From Sedimenticola sp. (lineage in GTDB: Bacteria; Pseudomonadota; Gammaproteobacteria; Chromatiales; Chromatiaceae), in contig JALWRH010000076.1 in NCBI GenBank assembly GCA_026994195.1, positions 10,256 to 53,754 on the forward strand: 43,499 nucleotides of DNA, in the 5' to 3' direction. How positions within the stretch are numbered: position 1 is the first letter of the stretch; every line of letters starts with the position of its first letter. This document shows positions 24,474 to 39,133 of this stretch, piece after piece. The position numbers and the translations under genes were made by a program. The notes below the pieces were generated by a model. That model ran no database searches. It was not told the origin of the DNA and saw only the letters and a program-made list of their open reading frames with translations.

Positions 24474-25970
24474 TCATTCCTTTGTTTCAGTGGCCGGGGT
24501 TTCCAGGTTGTCTGGAGCAACAGCGGTTTCCTCCTTGTCTGACTGCGCCTCTGCGTGGCCGGAGGGATTGGTGAACCGGTCATTGAGTTGTTGCACGAAC
24601 TTGTCAGCCCGGTTTACCAGGGCTGACAGCTTGCGCCGGGTGCCGCGCCCCCAGCCGGCCGGGGTCTTGGCCATCAGGCTGCGCCAGGGACGGGTGCTCC
24701 TGTGGAAAGCGGCAGCCAGATTGATCTTCACGGGCAGAGCCTGTTCCTGCTCAGCCAGCCATCCGCCAAGGCTGCGGGCCGCCAGGCGGCGCAGGGCCAG
24801 GTGCAGCGCATAACCGCCACCGAGAACCACGGCCAGGAAGATGCCGCTGTGTAAGGTGCTTTCCCGTATCCATTGCCACCAGCTGCCCAATTGTCCGTTG
24901 CTGGCCCCCAGGCCCAGCACCAGGGCGGCGATCAGGCCGAAGACAATGCCATCCAGCCAGAGCACGCGTTTTTTCCACCGGGCCAGGGCTTGCGTGAGCG
25001 AGGGGATGACCTGCTCCTCGATTTCCCGGGCGGTTTTTTCCAGAGCGGCGACGATGCGATAGGCGCGTTCGACTTCCACCTGGGCCATACGGCCGTATAT
25101 TTCCGCCAGATCCTTGTCCCGCTTGCTTTCATAGCGTTGACGCAGCTTGTCGTCCTCGATCAGATTGGAGGCCGTGTGGCTGTAGATGGTGTAGAAACGG
25201 CCTGCAGTCAGGCCGTGCTCTCCCAGGGCGCGTTGCCATGCGGCGATGACTTCCTCGGGATTGTCTTCCTTGGCCGTTGTGTCTATCTGGTTGAGAATAA
25301 ACATGAATTTCCCGGAATCGGGACGGTGGATGGTCTTGGCGACCAAATGTTCCAGGGTATCGCGCATGGCGCCGGGTTCCGGGTGTCGGGCATCGAAAAA
25401 CACCAGGACCAGATCCGACAAATCCACCATGTGATCCGTAATGCGCAGTGTGGAAGTGCGTTGCGCGTCAGCGTCGAAGCCCGGGGAGTCGATAAGAATC
25501 TTGCCCTTGAGGCGCTCGCTGTTGCAGCTTTTGAGCTGCAGGTACGCGTCGATGCGATCGCCTTCGCCTTCCGCCACCAGTTCGATCTCGCGGCTGATCT
25601 TGTAGAACGGGAAACGCGGGTCGGAATCCAGGGCGACGCCGGGCAGGGTGTGGGGCGTGGGATCCTCGCTGTAGCAGATTACCGTGAACTTGTCGTCCAC
25701 GGCCTGGTTGCCGCTGCGTTGCAGCTGGGTTTCCAGGTAATTGTTGATGAAGGTGGATTTTCCTGCAGAAAAAGTGCCCAGGATGGAAATCAGGGGCCAC
25801 CAGGGAATCTGCGTAGCGAAAGACTCGCTACGACTCAGGAGTCCCATGCGGTAGGCCACCTTGTCCAGCTCACGGAAGCTCTGTACGGCTTTGAGCAGCA
25901 CGGGGTTTTCCTTTTCCAGGTGGGATTCCAGTTGTTTCAGTCTGTTTTCGATAATATCTTGATCGGCCAT
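24474..25970 (-). CDS. dynamin-like GTPase, membrane-associated
   Basis: 498 residues. The GTPase domain has G1 GTFSAGKST (about residues 64-72), G3 DSPG and G4 NQID, and DARHPEPGAM follows G3 as in EHD/dynamin-type GTPases. A helical stalk follows (about residues 270-325), then two hydrophobic segments (about residues 333-352 and 368-388) and a basic region. The C-terminus is acidic and likely disordered. Bacterial dynamin-like proteins remodel or tether membranes. A single copy is present here without the usual tandem partner. Confidence 0.85.
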   Translation of the reverse strand: MADQDIIENRLKQLESHLEKENPVLLKAVQSFRELDKVAYRMGLLSRSESFATQIPWWPLISILGTFSAGKSTFINNYLETQLQRSGNQAVDDKFTVICYSEDPTPHTLPGVALDSDPRFPFYKISREIELVAEGEGDRIDAYLQLKSCNSERLKGKILIDSPGFDADAQRTSTLRITDHMVDLSDLVLVFFDARHPEPGAMRDTLEHLVAKTIHRPDSGKFMFILNQIDTTAKEDNPEEVIAAWQRALGEHGLTAGRFYTIYSHTASNLIEDDKLRQRYESKRDKDLAEIYGRMAQVEVERAYRIVAALEKTAREIEEQVIPSLTQALARWKKRVLWLDGIVFGLIAALVLGLGASNGQLGSWWQWIRESTLHSGIFLAVVLGGGYALHLALRRLAARSLGGWLAEQEQALPVKINLAAAFHRSTRPWRSLMAKTPAGWGRGTRRKLSALVNRADKFVQQLNDRFTNPSGHAEAQSDKEETAVAPDNLETPATETKE

Positions 25971-26282: not shown

Positions 26283-26678
26283 ATGGCTGACCTGTTTTCC
26301 GCAGAATGGATGGCTTCTTTTGCTGACCATTGGAATGCTGAGGATGATCTGACCGGGCCTTTGGGCGATATCGGTTTCAACAGCGTGATTGGCTATGGTT
26401 TTCCTGATGATGATCAGCCTGTCGGCGTATTGACCGTTGAGAACGGCAAGGCGGTATCCGGTGGCGCCTATAATGGCGAAGCGCTGAACTGGGACATCCG
26501 CGCTTCCGCCGATCAATGGAATAAGTGGATCGCCAAGCCTCCCGGCATGATGGGGCTTGGCGCGGCATTCACCACGGGCAAAATGAAATTCAAAGTGGGT
26601 GATTACGGCTCCATGCTCAAGGACCCCCGCATGGCCAAGCCCTTCATCAAGAGCTTTTCCGTGATGGGGAAGGTGTAG
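26283..26678 (+). CDS. SCP2-like sterol-carrier domain protein
   Basis: 131 residues. Alternating strands and helices with a WDIRASADQWNKWI helix and the GKMKFKVGDYGSMLKD segment resemble SCP2/SCPx lipid-binding domains. The fold is a hydrophobic-ligand pocket, but the ligand is unknown. GGAGGTG lies six to eleven bases before the ATG. There is no signal peptide, so it is cytoplasmic. It stands alone ahead of the RND genes, 112 nt away. Confidence 0.75.
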   Translation: MADLFSAEWMASFADHWNAEDDLTGPLGDIGFNSVIGYGFPDDDQPVGVLTVENGKAVSGGAYNGEALNWDIRASADQWNKWIAKPPGMMGLGAAFTTGKMKFKVGDYGSMLKDPRMAKPFIKSFSVMGKV

Positions 26679-26790
26679 CTCTGCCGTATCGGCGCCAGTG
26701 GCGGGTTTTACCCGGGTCGGGAGAACCGCTGCTGTTATCTAAATGCCTGGGTGACATACCCGGCTTTCAGAAATCTTGGGAATCACGTAT

Positions 26791-27942
26791 ATGAGCAATA
26801 TCAGGACAATGCGGGCGGCGGTCGTGGCTTTCGTCATTTCGCTCGGAAGCCTAGGCTCGGCACTGGCAGAGGGCAAGAATTCATTCGGCGAAATCTTTGT
26901 GGTGCAGGCTTCAGATCGCCAGCCTACCGTGTCCATTGGCGGCACTGTGGTGCCTTACAAACAGGTTACTCTGGCCGCGCAGATTCCCGGACGGGTCAAG
27001 TACATTGCCGGCATCGAAGGGGATGCGTTCAAGGAGGGCACGCTTTTGGTGGCTATCGATGACTCGGAGCTTCTGGCCAAGCGGGCCGCCGCCTATGCCC
27101 AATTGTCGTCTGCAGAAGCGGAACTGCGCAATGCCGGGGTGCAGTATTCCCGGGAACTGTGGTCGCCCAAGTCCAAGGCGGCTCCTGGTGGCATGGGCAT
27201 TCCCAATCTTTTCGACCAGATGTTTACCAGTGGGGCGGAGGACTTCATGGGCGAGCGTGACCGCGGAGCGGAGCGCAGCGCTGATCTGTATGCCTCCACC
27301 ACCCGTATCGAGCAAGCCCGTTCGGCTATCATGCGCGCCCGTTCGGAGATCCAGGCCATCGAGGCCAAGCTGCGCGACGCCAAGAGCCTGGCGCCTTTTG
27401 ATGGCGTGATCATGAACAAGATGGTGGAAGTGGGCGATACAGTGCAGCCTGGTGTGCCCATGCTGCGCTTTGCCGATATCACCTGGCTGCAGGTGGAACT
27501 GGACATCCCCGCCCGCCTGGTTACGGGCCTTCAGGAAATGATGGTGCTGAAGAAAGCAGCAACCTTTGACGATTACGCGGAACCCGTGGACGTGCGCGTT
27601 GCCCAGATCTACCCCATGGCGGATGCCCAGCGCCACACGATCAAGGTCAAGTTTGATATCCCCCAGGGAATATCCCAACCGGGTATGTATGCCAAGATCA
27701 GTATTCCGGATACCAGCCATGCGGCGGAAACCGGCAGCCTGCCGGTGATTCCTGCCTCAGCCATTCGCTATCGCGGCAGCCTGCCCGTGGTCTATGTGCA
27801 AAATGAGGAAGGCAAGCCGGAACTGCGCCTGATTCGTGAGGGCCGCCGTCTGGACAATGGCATGGTCACCGTGCTTTCCGGCCTGGCGCCGGGGGACAAG
27901 ATTTGGGTCAATCCGCGGCCAGGGATGATTTCCGGTTCATGA
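26791..27942 (+). CDS. RND efflux periplasmic adaptor (HlyD/MFP family)
   Basis: 383 residues from the ATG at 26791; a TTG five codons upstream is also in frame. A Sec signal peptide ends near ALA. The order is a beta-barrel/lipoyl first half (GTVVPYKQVTLAAQIPGRV), a helical hairpin with a long insertion (about residues 110-190, including a Met/Phe-rich loop), a lipoyl second half (LAPFDGVIMNKMVEVGDTV), a beta-barrel and a membrane-proximal domain. It should link the RND pump encoded 169 nt downstream to an outer-membrane channel not present here. Confidence 0.88.
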   Translation: MSNIRTMRAAVVAFVISLGSLGSALAEGKNSFGEIFVVQASDRQPTVSIGGTVVPYKQVTLAAQIPGRVKYIAGIEGDAFKEGTLLVAIDDSELLAKRAAAYAQLSSAEAELRNAGVQYSRELWSPKSKAAPGGMGIPNLFDQMFTSGAEDFMGERDRGAERSADLYASTTRIEQARSAIMRARSEIQAIEAKLRDAKSLAPFDGVIMNKMVEVGDTVQPGVPMLRFADITWLQVELDIPARLVTGLQEMMVLKKAATFDDYAEPVDVRVAQIYPMADAQRHTIKVKFDIPQGISQPGMYAKISIPDTSHAAETGSLPVIPASAIRYRGSLPVVYVQNEEGKPELRLIREGRRLDNGMVTVLSGLAPGDKIWVNPRPGMISGS

Positions 27943-28111: not shown

Positions 28112-31100
28112 ATGAGTGATCTCGATACCAAGCCCCACAATCCCCCGCTGTCCGGCATCGTGGAAGAATCCGAGAATCTCGGGATAGCGGGGCGTACGGC
28201 GCGCTTCTTCATCAATTCCCCCCTGTCGCCCCTGTTGTACATGACCATGTTCCTGCTGGGTCTGGCCGGCCTGATCATGACGCCGCGCCAGGAAGATCCA
28301 CAGATCTCCGTGCCCCTCATCGACCTTTTCGTTCAATACCCGGGCGCTCCTGTGGAAGAAGTGGCTTCTCTGGCCATTCAACCCCTGGAACGCATGATGT
28401 GGGAGATAGAGGGGGTCAAGCACGTATATTCCGCTTCCAGGCGCGGTGGCGGCATGGTTACCGTGCAGTTCGAGGTGGGCGAGGAGATGGAACCCTCCCT
28501 GGTGAAGGTCAATGAACAGCTGGCCTCCAACATGGACAAGATTCCCAATGGCGTTTCGCCACCCCTGGTGCAGGCCAAAGGCATCGACGACGTGCCGGTG
28601 GTCACTTTGACCTTGTGGTCCGACAAGGATTTCAACGGAGACGGTATTCCCGACGTGGACGACAGTCAGCTGCGCCGCCTGGCCCTGTCTGTGCTGCAGT
28701 CCATCAAGGAGATTCCCGAGACCGGCGAGGGCTTCGTGGTGGGCGGGCGCGCCGAGCAGGTGACTATCGAAGTGCTGCCCGAGCGTCTGGCCGGTTACGG
28801 CATCAGCCTGGGGCAGGTGGCCCAGGCCATTCAGAAGGCCAACTCAGAACAGCAGGCTGGCAACGTGGAAGCTGCCGGCACGCATTTCTCGGTGGTCACC
28901 GGCAAGTTTCTGCAGACTGCTGATGATATCAACCATCTCAAGGTTGGCAGCCACAATGGTGTGCCCGTGTATGTACGGGATGTGGCCCTGGTGCGCCAGG
29001 GTCCGGAAGATGCCAAGCGCATGGTGGCATACTACACGGGAGCCGCATCGGAGAATCCGGATCTGGCAGTCAGTGTGCCTGCGGTGACCATTGCCATTGC
29101 CAAGAAGAAAGGCACCAATGGCGTCACGGTGGCGAACAAGGTGCTGGAACGGGTGGAGGAACTCAAGGGCCGCCTGATTCCCAGCAATGTGCAGGTGAGT
29201 GTCACCCGCAATTACGGCAAGACTGCCAATGATAAGGTCAGGGCGCTGATCTTCAAGCTGTTCGTGGCTACTTTCTTCGTGTTCATCCTGGTCTGGTGGG
29301 CCTTCCGCGCCCTCAAACCCGCCATGGTGGTGTTGCTGGTCATTCCCGTGGTGTTGCTGTTCACGGTTTTTGGAGCCTGGATGCTGGGCTTCACCATCGA
29401 CCGGGTGTCCCTGTTCGCCCTGATTTTCTCGATTGGCATCCTGGTGGATGATGCCATTGTAGTGGTGGAGAACATCTACCGGCGCTGGCTGGAGGAAGGC
29501 AAGACGGATTCTGAAACTGCCGTGGATGCCGTGCGGGAAGTGGGCAACCCCACCATCCTCGCCACGCTTACGGTCATCGGCGCTCTCCTGCCCATGGGCT
29601 TCGTGTCCGGCATGATGGGCCCCTATATGATGCCCATTCCTGCCTTGGGCACAGTGGCCATGATCATCTCTTTGTTTGCCGCCTTTGTGTTCACCCCCTG
29701 GCTGGCGATTCATCCCCTGTTCCGTCCTTCCATGGAGTATTTGGCTGTGGCGGAAAAACGTGAGCACAAGGAAGCAGAGAAGCTGGAGAAGGTTTACCGG
29801 CGCATTCTCATGCCCATGATAGAGAATCCGCGCAAAGCGCGGCGTTTCCGTCTGGCCATGTGGGGCGTGTTCCTGCTCATGTGTTCCATGTTCTATTTCA
29901 AGCTGGTGGTAGTGAAAATGCTGCCCCTGGACAACAAGCCCGAGTATTCGGTGGTTCTGGATATGCCGGAGGGCACGGCTCTGGCAGAGACGGCGAACCG
30001 TGCCAACCAAGTCGCCAACCTGGTGCGCAAGCTGCCGGAAGTGACCGCAGTGCAGGTCTATGTGGGCACCGCCAAGCCCTATGATTTCAACGGCATGGTG
30101 CGGCACTATTATTTGCGCAAGGAACCCTGGCAGGCTGAAATACAGGTACAGCTGCTGGACAAGCACAAGCGCAAGCGCAGCAGCCACGAGATTGCAGTAG
30201 AGACCCGGGCGCGGCTCAAGGAGCTGTTCAAGGATGTGGAAACCAATTTTGCCGTGGTGGAAATGCCGCCAGGCCCGCCGGTACTGCAGTCTGTGGTGGC
30301 TACGGTGTACGGGCCTGATGCCCCCACGCGGCGCAAGGTGGCGGAGGATCTGACCGGGATCTTCTCGGAAGCGCCCAATCTGGTTGACGTGGACAACTAC
30401 ATGGTCAAGCCCCATGACTACTGGCGTTTCATGGTGGACCGGGACAAAGCCGATATGCGCGGCATTTCTGTGGATTCCATCAATAAGAACCTGGCTATGG
30501 CTTTGGGCGGCATGGTTTTGGGCGATGTCAAGCAGCGGGCCGGCCATGAACCGGTGAATATCGTGATTCAGGTGCCTCTGGCGGAGCGCTCGCAGATCAG
30601 CCGCCTGGGAGATCTGCTCATCCAGTCCGTGGATGGCGTGGGTGTACCCCTGCGAGAACTGGGTGAATTCAAACGGGTGCCCGTGGAGCCCACGGTGTTC
30701 AACAAGGATCTGCGTGCCGTGGAGTATGTGGTAGCCGATGTAGGCGGGCGCCTGGCAGCGCCTGTGTACGGCATGATGCAGGTTGAAGATCTGCTGGCCA
30801 ACTGGAAGGACGGCAAACCTTATGTCACTCCGGACAACATTACGCTGGCGGACCACACTTACTGGACCGGACCTCCTCCCACGGAGGGTCAATCCAGCTT
30901 CGAGTGGACCGGTGAATGGACGGTTACCTACGAAACTTTCCGGGATATGGGGGCGGCTTTTGGCGCAGCCCTGGTGCTGATCTATATACTTGTGGTGTGG
31001 GAGTTTGGCAACTTCCGCATTCCTGCACTCATCATGTCTCCTATTCCCCTGACCCTGCTGGGTATTCTTCCGATGCATGCCATCTTCTTCGCCCTGGGCC

Positions 31101-32326
31101 TGGGTGGAGAATTCACGGCTACCTCCATGATTGGCTGGATTGCCCTGGCGGGTATCATCGTGCGCAACTCCATTCTGCTGGTGGATTTCTCTATTCACGA
31201 AGTGCAAAAAGGTGTAAGTGTGCCGGAGGCGGTGATTCGGGCCTGTAAGACCCGTACACGTCCTATTCTGATAACGGCCTTTGCTCTGGTTTTTGCTTCT
31301 TCAGTCATCTTCTTTGATCCCATCTTTCAGGGTATGGCAATTTCCCTGGCGTCTGGCGTACTGGTATCCACCATTCTGACCCTGGTGGTCATTCCTTTGG
31401 GCATGGTGTCCGCCTCTGATTCCCTGTGCGAGGCAGCAGGACGCCGTTGTCCCAAGCCCTCCAAAGGCAAGAAAGGACCACAGGGTGGCAGTTCCGGAAG
31501 TGGTGGCAGGACTTTCCTCAAACGGGGCTGGAATGTTGTAGCCACGGTTCTGATCGGTGCTTTTGGTCTTCTTGCTTCGGTTATCCGCATGTTCCGTGGC
31601 AAAGGCAAAGCTCAGCCTCACCAGGCTGCGCCGGCAGAATCTTCCAGGACCCCAAGAACTGCCGAGCAGGAAAAACCTGATATACAAGAAAAGCCTGTGG
31701 AGAAGAAGCCCATAGAGAAAAGCCGCACCTCCTTGGTATCTGACGAGGAGGAGGGCAAGTCTTTGGATGTGGAGCGTATCGAAAGGGATCTGGAAATCAT
31801 CGCCCAGCCCCTGCGCAAGTCGGCCGCGCCGGCAGTAGAGACATCCAAGCAACCTGGGCGCGCTTCCAAGAAAACAGTCAGGAAGCCGCCAGTGAAAAAA
31901 GCTGCCGCCACGAAAAAGCCTGCTTCAAGGGTGGCGGGCAAGTCTGCTGGTACAACGGTTGCTGATGCAACAAAGAACAAACCTTCCGCAAAGAAAACGG
32001 CGACGGACAAGACAGCGGTCAGGAAAGCTGCTGCTAAAAAGCCGGTGGCCAAGAAAAAAGCTGTCACCAAGAAGTCAGAGGCAAAGCCATCGGCTCCCAA
32101 GAAAACAACGGTGAAAAAGTCAGCAGCCAAGAAAACAGCCAGTAAGAAAACACCGGTTACACAGAAGCGTACACCGGGCAAAGCTCCGCTGAAATCCGCC
32201 ACGGCGGCGCCACGTAAAAAAGTTGCCAAGAAGAAAGTGATACCCGTAGCCGTTGCCAGGAAAAGTGGCCGGCGGGGTATCCGCTTGAAAAGTCTGGACA
32301 GCAGCGATGATGGTCTATCATCCTGA
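28112..32326 (+). CDS. RND transporter with H1-like lysine-rich tail
   Basis: 1404 residues, about 350 more than usual. Residues 1 to about 1100 are a full RND pump: N-terminal TM1, two large periplasmic loops, TM4 with the conserved GILVDDAIVVVENI proton-relay aspartates, and the second TM bundle ending near VVIPLGM. The first periplasmic loop has an inserted DFNGDGIPDVDDSQ, an EF-hand-like calcium loop. After the twelfth segment comes an extra hydrophobic stretch (about 1140-1158) and then a 245-residue tail. The end of the tail (1253-1376) has 38 lysines in 124 residues, with repeated KKxA/AKKP/VKKS motifs like histone H1 or AlgP. Substrate is unknown. The start has a poor Shine-Dalgarno. 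Confidence 0.9.
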   Translation: MSDLDTKPHNPPLSGIVEESENLGIAGRTARFFINSPLSPLLYMTMFLLGLAGLIMTPRQEDPQISVPLIDLFVQYPGAPVEEVASLAIQPLERMMWEIEGVKHVYSASRRGGGMVTVQFEVGEEMEPSLVKVNEQLASNMDKIPNGVSPPLVQAKGIDDVPVVTLTLWSDKDFNGDGIPDVDDSQLRRLALSVLQSIKEIPETGEGFVVGGRAEQVTIEVLPERLAGYGISLGQVAQAIQKANSEQQAGNVEAAGTHFSVVTGKFLQTADDINHLKVGSHNGVPVYVRDVALVRQGPEDAKRMVAYYTGAASENPDLAVSVPAVTIAIAKKKGTNGVTVANKVLERVEELKGRLIPSNVQVSVTRNYGKTANDKVRALIFKLFVATFFVFILVWWAFRALKPAMVVLLVIPVVLLFTVFGAWMLGFTIDRVSLFALIFSIGILVDDAIVVVENIYRRWLEEGKTDSETAVDAVREVGNPTILATLTVIGALLPMGFVSGMMGPYMMPIPALGTVAMIISLFAAFVFTPWLAIHPLFRPSMEYLAVAEKREHKEAEKLEKVYRRILMPMIENPRKARRFRLAMWGVFLLMCSMFYFKLVVVKMLPLDNKPEYSVVLDMPEGTALAETANRANQVANLVRKLPEVTAVQVYVGTAKPYDFNGMVRHYYLRKEPWQAEIQVQLLDKHKRKRSSHEIAVETRARLKELFKDVETNFAVVEMPPGPPVLQSVVATVYGPDAPTRRKVAEDLTGIFSEAPNLVDVDNYMVKPHDYWRFMVDRDKADMRGISVDSINKNLAMALGGMVLGDVKQRAGHEPVNIVIQVPLAERSQISRLGDLLIQSVDGVGVPLRELGEFKRVPVEPTVFNKDLRAVEYVVADVGGRLAAPVYGMMQVEDLLANWKDGKPYVTPDNITLADHTYWTGPPPTEGQSSFEWTGEWTVTYETFRDMGAAFGAALVLIYILVVWEFGNFRIPALIMSPIPLTLLGILPMHAIFFALGLGGEFTATSMIGWIALAGIIVRNSILLVDFSIHEVQKGVSVPEAVIRACKTRTRPILITAFALVFASSVIFFDPIFQGMAISLASGVLVSTILTLVVIPLGMVSASDSLCEAAGRRCPKPSKGKKGPQGGSSGSGGRTFLKRGWNVVATVLIGAFGLLASVIRMFRGKGKAQPHQAAPAESSRTPRTAEQEKPDIQEKPVEKKPIEKSRTSLVSDEEEGKSLDVERIERDLEIIAQPLRKSAAPAVETSKQPGRASKKTVRKPPVKKAAATKKPASRVAGKSAGTTVADATKNKPSAKKTATDKTAVRKAAAKKPVAKKKAVTKKSEAKPSAPKKTTVKKSAAKKTASKKTPVTQKRTPGKAPLKSATAAPRKKVAKKKVIPVAVARKSGRRGIRLKSLDSSDDGLSS

Positions 32327-32502: not shown

Positions 32503-33141
32503 ATGATTACCCTCATTGGAAGCCTCAAGGGTGGATCCGGAAAAAGCACCATCACTTTCAATCTGGCCGTCTGGCTGTCTCTGGCCGAACAGAACGTGCT
32601 CGCCATCGATGCAGATCCTCAGGCCACGCTGACGGATGTTGTGGATGTGCGTACTGAAGAAGGCTATGAGCCCCCGGTTATCCTGGGCAGCAAAACACTA
32701 CTTACAAACCGCAAGAAGCTCGACGAGTATGATGAAGTGTTAGTGGATGTGGGTACGGCGGACCTGCACAGTTTCAAACAGGCCATCGCTGTTGCTGACA
32801 GGATCGTGGTTCCTGTGCCCCCCAGCCAGGCGGATATCTGGTCTACCCAACGTTTTCTGCGCCTCATCGATTCTGTGGTTTCAGACAGCCGCAGGCCGGA
32901 AGTGATGGGTTTCATCAACCGGGCCGACACTCACCGTGCCATTCGTGAAAGTGATGAAGCTGCTGCAGCCCTGGTATCTCTGCCGGGCATCAAGTTCATC
33001 AAGGCGCGCCTGGCCCAGCGTACCGCTTTCCGCCGTTCCTTCAGTGAGGGACTGGGGGTATTTGAGATGGATCCCCGGAGCAAGGGGGCGCTGGAGTGGA
33101 ATGCTCTGGCAGCCGTGCTTTACGCCCATGTGGTCGGTTGA
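32503..33141 (+). CDS. orphan ParA-family ATPase
   Basis: 212 residues. The deviant Walker A is KGGSGKST (K9 signature lysine, K14), Walker A' is IDADPQAT, and Walker B is DEVLVDVG. The short length and lack of an N-terminal HTH resemble ParA-like positioning proteins (as in chemotaxis-array, carboxysome or cellulose-synthase partitioning) rather than plasmid SopA/P1 ParA. No ParB gene or parS-like repeats are near. AGGGAG precedes the ATG. It is followed by a membrane coiled-coil protein, its most likely partner. Confidence 0.88.
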   Translation: MITLIGSLKGGSGKSTITFNLAVWLSLAEQNVLAIDADPQATLTDVVDVRTEEGYEPPVILGSKTLLTNRKKLDEYDEVLVDVGTADLHSFKQAIAVADRIVVPVPPSQADIWSTQRFLRLIDSVVSDSRRPEVMGFINRADTHRAIRESDEAAAALVSLPGIKFIKARLAQRTAFRRSFSEGLGVFEMDPRSKGALEWNALAAVLYAHVVG

Positions 33142-33276: not shown

Positions 33277-33780
33277 GTGACAGCATTGAGCTCCCAGGAA
33301 GAAGACAAACAGCAGGTAACCGATCAGGAGGGTATTACACGCCTGTCGGAAGTCTTCGAAACCAGTGCCCGTCGCTGGGAATTGATCATTTATCCTTCCA
33401 TGTTTGCTTTCGTTGTGCTGGCAGCCTATGGCTTCTTTCTTATCTACCGCCTGGCCGGTGATATGCATTATATGGTCATCAGCGTGGATACCCACATGTC
33501 CGTGCTTTCCAGCAATATGCAGAGCATGTCAGAGAACATGGGGCAGATGACTACCAATATCCGCACCATGACGGTGAGCCTGGACTCCATGGAACACAAA
33601 ATGGGGACGCTGCAGCCTATATTGGCGAGCATGGAGTCCATGGATGATTCCATGAAGTCTCTGAATGCATCGACTCGTGCCATGACCTTTGCCACCCAGG
33701 GCATGCAGCATGATATGTCGCGGCTGAACACCAATGTGGGTCGGCCCATGTCGTTCATGAACAGTTTTATGCCCTGGTAG
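33277..33780 (+). CDS. membrane protein with methionine-cored coiled coil
   Basis: 167 residues, not recognised. The start is uncertain: GTG at 33277, or TTG at 33286, which has AAGGTG six bases upstream. An acidic cytoplasmic N-terminus is followed by one membrane segment (about residues 38-58). Then comes a coiled coil in which a/d core positions 70, 74, 77, 81, 84, 88, 91, 95, 98, 102, 105, 109, 112, 116 and 119 are all hydrophobic and nine of the fifteen are Met. The last 105 residues contain 19 Met. It could be a scaffold partner for the ParA ATPase. The 5'-nucleotidase gene starts two bases after its stop. Confidence 0.8.
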   Translation: MTALSSQEEDKQQVTDQEGITRLSEVFETSARRWELIIYPSMFAFVVLAAYGFFLIYRLAGDMHYMVISVDTHMSVLSSNMQSMSENMGQMTTNIRTMTVSLDSMEHKMGTLQPILASMESMDDSMKSLNASTRAMTFATQGMQHDMSRLNTNVGRPMSFMNSFMPW

Positions 33781-36848: not shown

Positions 36849-38714
36849 TCAAAGATCATTCCATAGATCCTGAAAGTCATCTGTAGGGTCGTCGGATTGT
36901 TTCCGGGATTTTTCTTGTTCCACGTAAGTGAAATGATAGTGGATGAAATTGTTGTTTGACTCCACCCATTTGGTCAGTTTGATCTGGTGTTCGCCAAATT
37001 CTGTGACCATGGTCATGATTGTGTTCAAATCAAAGGCGCGTGTATTGGTCAGTATGCCTTGTCTTTCGCTGTCTATACCGCTTCCGGACAACAGCAGGCA
37101 GCGATACTGGTTCTGCCGGTTGGAGGATGCTTTTGCGCCTGGGGTAATGGTTATGGGTGAACAACTGGAAGCCATCACCTGTATACCCAGGTACAGTTGA
37201 TCGTCTTCAATATCCTTCAGCCAGCGGGTGACTGCAACACTGAATTCCTCAGGGTTATTGGGAGAACGGATGCCCAGGATGTCTCCCACTCTCACTTTCA
37301 TAGGGTAGGAATCTTTCCAGCCCAGGCAGTAGCCCTCTACGCTTTCATTGTAGGTGAGTACGGAAAACGCGGCATTGGGGTCGCGCTTCATCGCATCAAA
37401 CAGGTTGGCGGGTTCATGTTCCATGGGCGTTCCCAGCAAAGCGCTTGCCAGGTTCGAGGAGGAGTCGGCAAATATGGAGTCTCCGCCAAGGCTGTTGATG
37501 GGAGAGGCAATGGCCAGGGTGCTGAAGACACTGTCGTTCCAGGTCAGGTGACTGGAAGGATTGGCATTGCCGGAATGCGCCGTGTTGTCTGCCTGCTGCT
37601 CAGACCCGCTATCCATGTTTTGCTCCAAGAGGTGCAGGAGATTGGTCAGGCCAACGATGGCGTACAGTTCATGGCGCAGGTTGTTGCGAGCAAACTTTCG
37701 TTCCAGGGATTTGTTCCAGCCTTTTATCAGCGAAGTGAGCAGAGACCGGGACAAGTGGTGCGGGTTCTGCTCCATATGTGCAGGAGACTCCCATTCCGCT
37801 TCATCATACTCTTCCCGGGCGCGGGACAGAACGCCGTTCAGATCGAATGCACGGTAACGGCTGTCATTGCGTTGTGCCGGGCTGATGGATTTTTGTGGTG
37901 GTTCGTCTGACCACAGGTTGAGGTAGAAGATTCCGGCGCTGTGATTGTCCATGTCGCTGATCAGGCCAATCTCTGTGTGCTTGTCCCATTCCTGCAGTTT
38001 GTCATGCAACAGTCGTAACTGGGTTTGGGTCAGGCGATAGGGGCTGGTGGTCGCGATCAGAACCATGTCCTTGTACACGTCCTCGATACTCTGCACACTC
38101 TTGCGGCGCCACAAGAACTTGCTGGTTTCCTTCACGCCTATGTGATGTACATGATTCTGTGAGGCCCAGGCATACAGGTAATGGGCTTCACGCCACAGCC
38201 CCTGTTGATAATTGCGGTAGATCAGCAGGTTGTGAAACATGCGTTGCTTCATATACTGAAGCGCCCGTTGTGCGGCAACGATCACCAGTTTCTGGTTGAA
38301 GTTCTTTTCGTCGCCCATGACCTGTTCCAGAAACAGGATCTTGTAGGAAATGGCGATTTCATTGCACAGTTCCGTGGCCAGCCGGGCGGCTTTCTTTGAC
38401 TTCGGGGACAGGGGAAAACCAACATTCAGGTAGTGTTTGGTGATGTTGGTGTTGATATAGCGGACAGGCTCCCGGAAAAGCTCGATGATCTCTGCACGAA
38501 CCAGGGTAGGGATCTTCATGCGGTTGAAGGTGGCGAGGGTTTTATACACCTGGCGTGCTGTTTCGCCGATGTTGGCGACAGGCAGCTGCTCGGCCCAACG
38601 CTTGACTTCCCGGGGACTCAGCAAAAAACTGTCCTCAGGCGCCACCGTCTGCTTGGGGATGGACAGTTCTACCCGTGGTTGCTTGCTGTTCTCGTCGCGT
38701 CTGCTGTCGGCCAT
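36849..38714 (-). CDS. conserved protein upstream of fimX-like gene
   Basis: 621 residues from the ATG at 38714 (AAGGAAAC nine bases ahead). An in-frame GTG at 38852 with AGGAGG 14 bases upstream would add 46 low-complexity residues. The N-terminal two thirds are mostly helical, and a Ser/Asn-rich linker follows (about 370-440). The C-terminal part has a VGDILGIRS...VAVTRWLKD...LGIQVM pattern that recalls a PilZ-like beta barrel, though the RxxxR c-di-GMP motif is not evident. I cannot name the family. The operon with a FimX-like gene suggests a role in c-di-GMP signalling or pilus control. Confidence 0.7.
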   Translation of the reverse strand: MADSRRDENSKQPRVELSIPKQTVAPEDSFLLSPREVKRWAEQLPVANIGETARQVYKTLATFNRMKIPTLVRAEIIELFREPVRYINTNITKHYLNVGFPLSPKSKKAARLATELCNEIAISYKILFLEQVMGDEKNFNQKLVIVAAQRALQYMKQRMFHNLLIYRNYQQGLWREAHYLYAWASQNHVHHIGVKETSKFLWRRKSVQSIEDVYKDMVLIATTSPYRLTQTQLRLLHDKLQEWDKHTEIGLISDMDNHSAGIFYLNLWSDEPPQKSISPAQRNDSRYRAFDLNGVLSRAREEYDEAEWESPAHMEQNPHHLSRSLLTSLIKGWNKSLERKFARNNLRHELYAIVGLTNLLHLLEQNMDSGSEQQADNTAHSGNANPSSHLTWNDSVFSTLAIASPINSLGGDSIFADSSSNLASALLGTPMEHEPANLFDAMKRDPNAAFSVLTYNESVEGYCLGWKDSYPMKVRVGDILGIRSPNNPEEFSVAVTRWLKDIEDDQLYLGIQVMASSCSPITITPGAKASSNRQNQYRCLLLSGSGIDSERQGILTNTRAFDLNTIMTMVTEFGEHQIKLTKWVESNNNFIHYHFTYVEQEKSRKQSDDPTDDFQDLWNDL

Positions 38715-39133
38715 TGTATTGTTTCCTTGTCCCTGAATCGACCCCTGGTGCTTGCTCGGCTGTGGGGTGGTCGGTAGGGTCGCAGTTATGGTGGCACGAA
38801 CCCCGGTCCCGGCCTGTTTGCTATGGCTTGAACGATTGATTTCTGAGTTCACCGGTAGATACCCCGCCTCCTGCTTCTGTTACACAGGATGACAGAAGAA
38901 TATCTCTACCGCTAAATATCGCCTAAAAAGGCTTTTATTCCAAGCACTAAAGGCAATAAATTATATATGAAATCAATAGTTGGGCACAGGGTTGGGTCTT
39001 CAAACAAAGATGGGTTTTCTTTTGCCGGGGGATGGTTATGCCGTAGTGTTGCAGTAAGCGCATGATTTGAAAGGAAAGATGTTTCTCAATGACAGATCCG
39101 ACATGATTCGTGGGTGGCATACCCGGGAAACAG
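38715..39133. other. AT-rich intergenic region
   Basis: 419 bases between two minus-strand genes. A perfect -10 TATAAT on the minus strand lies at 38960-38965, without a good -35. CTTCTGT (38874-38880) and ACAGAAG (38892-38898) form an inverted repeat, and AGGAGG on the minus strand lies at 38872-38867. A short GCCT-AAAA-AGGC hairpin followed by TTTTATT is near 38920. No gene is convincing here. Confidence 0.5.

Follow-up and report, generated by a model that had tools for sequence, protein, structure and literature searches.

Several bacterial positioning systems are built around ParA/MinD ATPases, among them ParAB, McdAB (carboxysomes), PomXYZ and PpfA/TlpT, and ParF/ParA of TP228 acts in plasmid partition. 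In those parts of the published work that were accessible, the partners of such ATPases contact the ATPase dimer via short basic peptides, mostly N-terminal, in which one key Arg or Lys is important along with hydrophobic residues (PMC13170346, PMC10241942, PMC12204374, PMC12462528), and many ParA/MinD ATPases are described as orphans with no known partner (PMC10241942). The locus described here shares with these systems a small ParA ATPase with a KGGxGKST motif and a proposed partner that is often encoded nearby and bears a short basic terminal peptide. In contrast to them, the proposed partner would be the cargo itself, a polytopic RND permease, and a separate adaptor protein between ParA and the cargo was not found. 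The peptide is located at the C-terminus of the permease, whereas the known partner peptides are mostly N-terminal, and we count this against the assignment.

The window (the whole 43,499-nucleotide stretch of Sedimenticola sp. DNA analysed here) belongs to contig C76 in a draft genome of 3.0 Mb. The RND ORF occupies positions 28112–32326 of the plus strand and encodes 1404 amino acids in a single frame with no internal stop. This agrees with the preliminary description, in which a complete RND transporter was read in one frame into an extra hydrophobic segment and a 245-residue tail. The AcrB/HAE-type permease core (residues 1–1104, 28112–31423, plus strand) matches Pfam ACR_tran (PF00873) at 469 bits with a cut-off of 28, the alignment being split into two stretches (model positions 2–820 and 847–1015). 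Like HAE-1 type RND permeases (ACR_tran; NF033617, TIGR00914), the protein carries a core that fits the Pfam model and has an adaptor gene upstream. Unlike them, it stays under the cut-offs of all the NCBIfam RND models listed and possesses a C-terminal extension made of a hydrophobic segment, a linker and an RGI peptide. By its sequence the protein is assigned to the RND permease superfamily, and proton-driven export is a prediction.

The extension begins with the extra hydrophobic segment (residues 1139–1162, 31526–31597, plus strand), modelled by AlphaFold as a single helix. It is followed by a variable low-complexity linker (residues 1163–1386, 31598–32269, plus strand), which is Lys/Ala-rich in the window, and by the conserved putative ParA-binding peptide RRGIRLK (residues 1387–1393, 32270–32290, plus strand). 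The linker is probably disordered, as suggested by its composition and by pLDDT values under 50. Residues 1253–1376 contain 38 Lys and 26 Ala among 124, so the lysine count given earlier is reproduced on recounting. In the 245 residues 1160–1404 there are 50 Lys and 17 Arg, along with 23 acidic residues; Lys makes up 4.4% of residues 1–1100. Repeats in the tail are weak, and a tandem-repeat origin of it was rejected.

The preliminary description had named an assembly error fusing two genes as one way in which the tail could prove spurious. This explanation fails, since tailed orthologs are present in most genomes of the host family and beyond it. The ortholog search covered 55 related genomes, 34 of them from the host family, and an RND ortholog with at least 60% identity was found in 31 of these 34 (absent from G004, G026 and G027). 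Open frames of 1221–1487 amino acids occur in 29 of the 31; the two shorter frames (G019 and G023), as well as that of G031, which is among the 29, run into contig ends. The layout of the RND gene is identical in G006 and G017, which are assemblies of 2–3 contigs. With tails occurring family-wide, an assembly artefact was rejected. The same layout was observed in records of Thiodiazotropha, Thiohalocapsa, Allochromatium, Thiocapsa, Magnetococcales, Parabeggiatoa, Cocleimonas, Thiothrix and Hydrogenovibrio and in an alphaproteobacterial MAG. These bacteria are largely sulfur oxidisers. Relatives with a stop near residue 1110, the second condition named at that time as speaking against the tail, do exist, but they are second copies or belong to lineages devoid of ParA. 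A second RND copy of another kind was seen in a Halochromatium genome (L190 in G081, the genome of L145): its 1390-residue frame includes a long Lys/Ala tail that lacks the RGI peptide, which the other RND copy of this genome (L171) carries.

Comparison of the tails shows which part of the extension is conserved. In orthologs the hydrophobic segment is followed by a linker that differs widely in length and in composition and then by RRGIRLK, which lies 0–28 residues before the C-terminus in 74 distinct tails. The Lys fraction ranges from 0.04 to 0.29 among the linkers listed, and the linker may be rich in Pro, Ala and Glu in place of Lys. The highest Lys count per 124-residue stretch spans 7–42 across 77 motif-bearing tails (three of them repeats, hence 74 distinct). 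An alignment of 12 diverse orthologs, made without the search pattern, has Arg1387 and Arg1391 invariant and Arg1388, Gly1389, Ile1390 and Leu1392 conserved to at least 90%; between residues 1102 and 1386 this level is reached by Ala1109 and Pro1195 only. The pattern itself fixes R2, G3 and I4, so invariance at these positions in pattern-selected tails holds by construction, and the 12-ortholog alignment is free of this limitation. On the DNA level, the RRGIRLK pattern has one match in the host genome, which falls within the RND gene, and seven matches over 16 genomes, one per genome; a reversed control pattern gave none in the host genome and one over the 16 (in G021).

The tail had been likened to histone H1, and its Lys/Ala composition had been emphasised with no mention of RRGIRLK. 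This emphasis does not hold for the family: Lys richness depends on the lineage, and what the aligned tails conserve is the end peptide. Like histone H1-like proteins (NF038053), the tail is Lys/Ala-rich, most markedly in its own genus. Unlike in these proteins, the composition drifts among orthologs, and residues 1236–1377 score 22.2 bits against the NF038053 cut-off of 80, so that membership was rejected. The tail might nevertheless bind DNA or an acidic polymer by its lysines, with the end peptide being incidental. The 38 Lys in 124 residues, the sub-threshold NF038053 match and the Lys-rich state of many tails (16 of 77 reach at least 30 Lys per 124 residues) are consistent with such binding, but the highest count is merely 7–10 in 14 of the 77 motif-bearing tails, and the end peptide is kept and tracks ParA while the linker drifts to Pro/Ala/Glu. 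We consider direct binding by the lysines quite improbable.

Two further peculiarities of the tails were observed. In L068/G042 and L293/G348, which belong to one genus, the linker consists of near-perfect EKAAA units in a long row; the G042 contig stops inside this row, and in L293 RRGIRLK comes after it. The tails of L134, L135, L139 and L141 (the same as L229), from Bathymodiolus/vesicomyid symbiont records and a related MAG, are devoid of RRGIRLK and share a different end, LGINKLIKKKDKNN[LI] or IDTN[SG]LLKKEDK[SN]D[IL], as if another peptide had replaced it. The search for ParA orthologs found none for these four loci.

The ParA-type ATPase (212 residues, 32503–33141, plus strand) is encoded directly downstream of the RND gene. 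It possesses the deviant Walker A motif KGGSGKST, and Lys9, Gly10, Gly11, Gly13, Lys14, Ser15 and Thr16 of the KGGxGK[ST] pattern are invariant in 14 of 14 aligned sequences (RND tail rows, which misaligned when added, were left out of this alignment). Both profile and fold indicate TP228 ParF/ParA (PDB 4dzz, 4e07 and 5u1g, the latter with its ParB) as the nearest solved relatives: the profile match has an E-value of 6e-16, and the top Foldseek matches of the L074 ParA, as modelled by AlphaFold, are 4e07 and 5u1g with TM-scores, normalised by target, of 0.86 and 0.85. In contrast to TP228 ParF/ParA, to which its identity is only about 21%, this ATPase adjoins a pump gene. The NCBIfam equivalog ParA_partition (NF041546) is a relative of the protein rather than its family, as the score of 127.5 bits lies below the cut-off of 180. 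The protein keeps a conserved basic C-terminal stretch, QRTAFRRSFSEG; dimerisation on ATP and non-specific DNA binding are predictions for it. In 14 loci of the own genus ParA starts 30–177 bp after the RND stop. Elsewhere the gap is 0.2–6 kb, often with variable genes in it.

ParA is a frequent neighbour of the tailed RND, and so are the adaptor, a coiled-coil protein and a dynamin-like GTPase; a DUF302 protein is also found nearby in the two lineages tested. In the window the periplasmic adaptor (membrane fusion protein) lies at 26776–27942 (plus strand; TIGR01730 at 161.7 bits, cut-off 94.9) and is preceded by a conserved 131-residue protein with no Pfam or NCBIfam matches (26283–26678, plus strand). 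The conserved coiled-coil protein (33277–33780, plus strand) has a hydrophobic N-terminal stretch and a weak, below-cut-off resemblance to DUF948. The dynamin-like GTPase (24474–25970, minus strand) matches Pfam Dynamin_N at 49.1 bits with a cut-off of 27; its gene is divergent and upstream in the host family and elsewhere is located downstream, in line with ParA (L105, L110, L116, L124). Behind the RND gene of L054, L055, L057, L088, L101, L124, L133 and L140 there are variable proteins that probably are secreted or sit in a membrane and that contain FRP/WRP-like or Gln/Asn-rich stretches; none of four of them searched against Pfam (L101, L124, L057, L140) exceeded a cut-off. Farther downstream in the window, a 667-residue protein without Pfam or NCBIfam matches (36849–38852, minus strand) adjoins an EAL/GGDEF protein and has relatives in loci of the own genus.

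The distribution of the peptide and of ParA was scored with one row per genome, usually for the best-scoring RND copy, and a genome was taken as peptide-positive if any inspected copy carried the pattern. The row of G088 is the tailed L230 and not the better-scoring tailless L226; that of G092 is L229 and not L227, neither of which has the peptide. Second copies (L099, L100, L114, L120, L121, L123, L125, L126, L132, L137, L143, L145, L151, L153), copies of genomes already counted (L074, L077, L086) and contig-cut RNDs for which the locus alone was covered (L075, L094, L097, L113, L118, L148), were left out. ParA orthologs score at least 175 bits and other ParA-like proteins at most 80 bits, contig-cut fragments apart; ParA was scored present from such fragments in G028 (72 residues) and L150. 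Scoring of flanks alone produced false exceptions, which were resolved by whole-genome searches: G033, G048 and the genomes of L098, L103 and L096 have no ParA beside the RND gene and encode it elsewhere. Similarly, all 13 ParA-bearing genomes whose listed RND copy had no tail hold another, tailed copy with the peptide.

The peptide and ParA are mostly present or absent together. Among 101 genome rows, 82 have both, 11 have neither, three have the peptide only, one has ParA only and four, with the RND cut, are unscorable (Fisher p = 4e-11, a value that ignores relatedness). In a FastTree tree of the RND core, eight independent pairs differ in ParA; the peptide changes with ParA in five of them, against it in none, and three are neutral, which gives a sign-test p of 0.0625, the floor for five informative pairs. 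L129, one of the losses, has a long branch here. When pairs were chosen by the peptide, six were obtained, of which on average 4.6 went with ParA, none against it, and 1.4 showed no difference. Furthermore, 22 of the 55 related genomes have neither such an RND (matches of at most 46% identity or none) nor ParA. The peptide without a ParA found occurs in three drafts, where the contig ends 2 kb (L065/G032), 0.5 kb (L146/G090) and 6.9 kb (L107/G057) past the RND gene. The case of ParA without the peptide is L104/G087: its tail frame stops 160 bp from the contig end, and another frame near this end reads SRGIRK. With these exceptions, the peptide is linked genetically to ParA and co-occurs with it.

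In three lineages both the peptide and ParA are gone while part of the operon stays. In G022, a genome of 100% completeness, the adaptor, the coiled-coil gene, the hydrophobic segment and a tail of 220 residues are retained. This tail closes with RKSVRIK, apparently a decayed RRGIRLK, and the genome-wide search gave no ParA ortholog. The tail of L133 (Thiomicrorhabdus), 136 residues long, lacks the peptide, and the search for a ParA ortholog found none there. L128, L131 and L142 are tailless, again with no ParA ortholog found, and have kept the coiled-coil and dynamin-like genes. In L130 and in the L134/L135/L139 clade the adaptor is the only operon neighbour seen, and the tailed copy may have been lost there with the whole operon rather than the peptide alone.

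These losses bear on the possibility that the peptide binds another product of the operon and that ParA disappears alongside by association only. ParA is indeed one among several conserved neighbours, the genes between RND and ParA vary, and the co-occurrence scoring covered ParA. The adaptor and coiled-coil genes, however, persist beside peptide-less RNDs (L052, L128, L131, L133, L142), as does the dynamin-like gene in L128, L131, L133 and L142, and ParA accompanies the peptide also in genomes where its gene lies away from the RND gene. A different operon partner is very improbable in our view.

A class-wide ParA search (E-values up to 1e-40, reaching down to 144 bits) found 65 carriers among 369 genomes. 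Twelve carriers already covered were set aside and the 53 other loci were examined; they share no sequence with the earlier loci, except for L283 with L132. The RND C-terminus is visible in 29 of the 53, and 28 of these 29 have the peptide: 25 match the pattern and three are near variants (RKGIRLK, TRGIRLK and PRGIRIK). In the remaining one, L260, the RND frame ends without the peptide and a separate frame behind it carries RRGIKLK. In L242, L243, L252 and L293 a frame that resembles a tail and is truncated by the contig end stands ahead of ParA and closes with RRGIRLK; it is probably the RND tail. In the other 20 loci no RND C-terminus is visible, 13 with at most about 3 kb upstream and seven with about 9 kb. 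In these seven (L241, L247, L250, L257, L259, L286 and L288) no RND was found in the about 9 kb upstream, the locus only being covered; the ParAs of L286 and L288 stand at 42% identity.

To be reached by ParA, the tail should be cytoplasmic, and the hydrophobic segment bears on this. If the segment spans the membrane, the tail is periplasmic and out of reach of ParA, which counts against its role as a ParA tether. A hydrophobic run of 18–40 residues is present in 66 of 72 peptide-bearing tails. In the AlphaFold model of the RND C-terminal half (overall pLDDT 72.8, pTM 0.55) the segment is one helix at about residues 1135–1164 with a mid-helix pLDDT of about 79. The tail could then act in the periplasm, e.g. 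on the cell wall or on sulfur-globule material, a location that the preliminary description had also offered. The single modelled helix and, for many tails, a 19-residue hydropathy of about 2 are in line with a membrane span, but 37 of the 66 segments contain an inner charged residue, and the net charge after the segment (median +18, range −21 to +44 in 66 tails) is mostly contrary to the positive-inside rule of membrane topology. Moreover, the segment is absent from six of the 72 peptide-bearing tails (L098, L101, L107, L111, L127 and L138), five of which, L107 being the exception, have ParA in the locus or genome. If the C-termini of RND proteins are cytoplasmic, these six tails must be so too. 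A periplasmic tail is therefore disfavoured, and we regard it as unlikely. A re-entrant or in-plane helix would reconcile the segment with a cytoplasmic tail.

The features of known partner peptides listed above are shared by RRGIRLK with its linker, and we propose that the peptide recruits ParA. Placed behind a low-complexity linker, RRGIRLK is itself a short basic terminal peptide, at the C-terminus in this case. The host's own ParB begins with MAKRGLGRGLDALL, and an RG[LI] core is common to it and to RRGIRLK, a resemblance of sequence that is suggestive only. Docking of the tail on ParA was tried with AlphaFold on a natural read-through chain of tail and ParA (L074). ParA was modelled well and the peptide remained unplaced on the monomer, with pLDDT below 50 for chain residues 15–50. 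The model gave no support to docking, and, being a monomer, it cannot show a site at the dimer interface.

We propose that the tail is a flexible cytoplasmic tether presenting the C-terminal RRGIRLK, which would recruit, and probably stimulate, the ParF-like ParA encoded next door. ParA-ATP would bind the nucleoid non-specifically, and the pump with its adaptor would be a cargo that ParA places or spreads over the nucleoid. Equally, the pump may be a membrane anchor that organises ParA. That the tail is a tether with a putative ParA-binding peptide, and the pump a cargo or an anchor of an orphan ParA, seems to us rather probable. The theme of a membrane–nucleoid tether, put forward in the preliminary description, remains likely, but the contact would be made via ParA, which the peptide tracks, and not via the lysines. 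The bolder reading, by which a ParA that rides on the nucleoid actively positions a whole envelope-spanning RND machine and apportions it at cell division, via the tail peptide of the machine itself and with no adaptor, is offered tentatively, and we hold it for somewhat doubtful. Under this reading the pump, adaptor, coiled coil and dynamin-like GTPase might together shape a domain of the envelope, for instance the region of the sulfur globules.

MinD/BcsQ-type ATPases regulate membrane machines, and ParA could likewise act on the pump by way of the tail peptide, controlling its activity or the way it is assembled, with no movement over the nucleoid. The co-occurrence data are identical for such regulation, and the operon encodes envelope-type proteins (the coiled coil and the dynamin-like GTPase), so that ParA may serve membrane assembly. 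On the other hand, by profile and fold the ATPase is most similar to ParF/TP228 ParA, and it retains a basic C-terminal stretch. Regulation of this kind is unlikely in our opinion.

Among the matches listed for open-licence PMC papers, available in part, neither an RND–ParA pairing nor such a tail is mentioned, which is weak evidence of absence. The accessible part of one paper states that the RND genes Alvin_0013–0015 adjoin CzcA (PMC11267869). We file the present case as a known motor, ParA, with what would be a new kind of cargo and a C-terminal tag on the cargo itself.

By comparative genomics, an orphan ParA subfamily obtains a specific peptide as its candidate partner and, surprisingly, an RND pump as its candidate cargo. 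The gain and loss of the peptide and ParA together suggests that the pump is positioned in the way chromosomes are segregated, and the seven-residue element is a mutable handle on the link between ParA and the pump. If the proposal is true, efflux machines would join chromosomes, plasmids, carboxysomes and chemoreceptors as cargo of ParA, and the peptide would be a ready tag for synthetic positioning.
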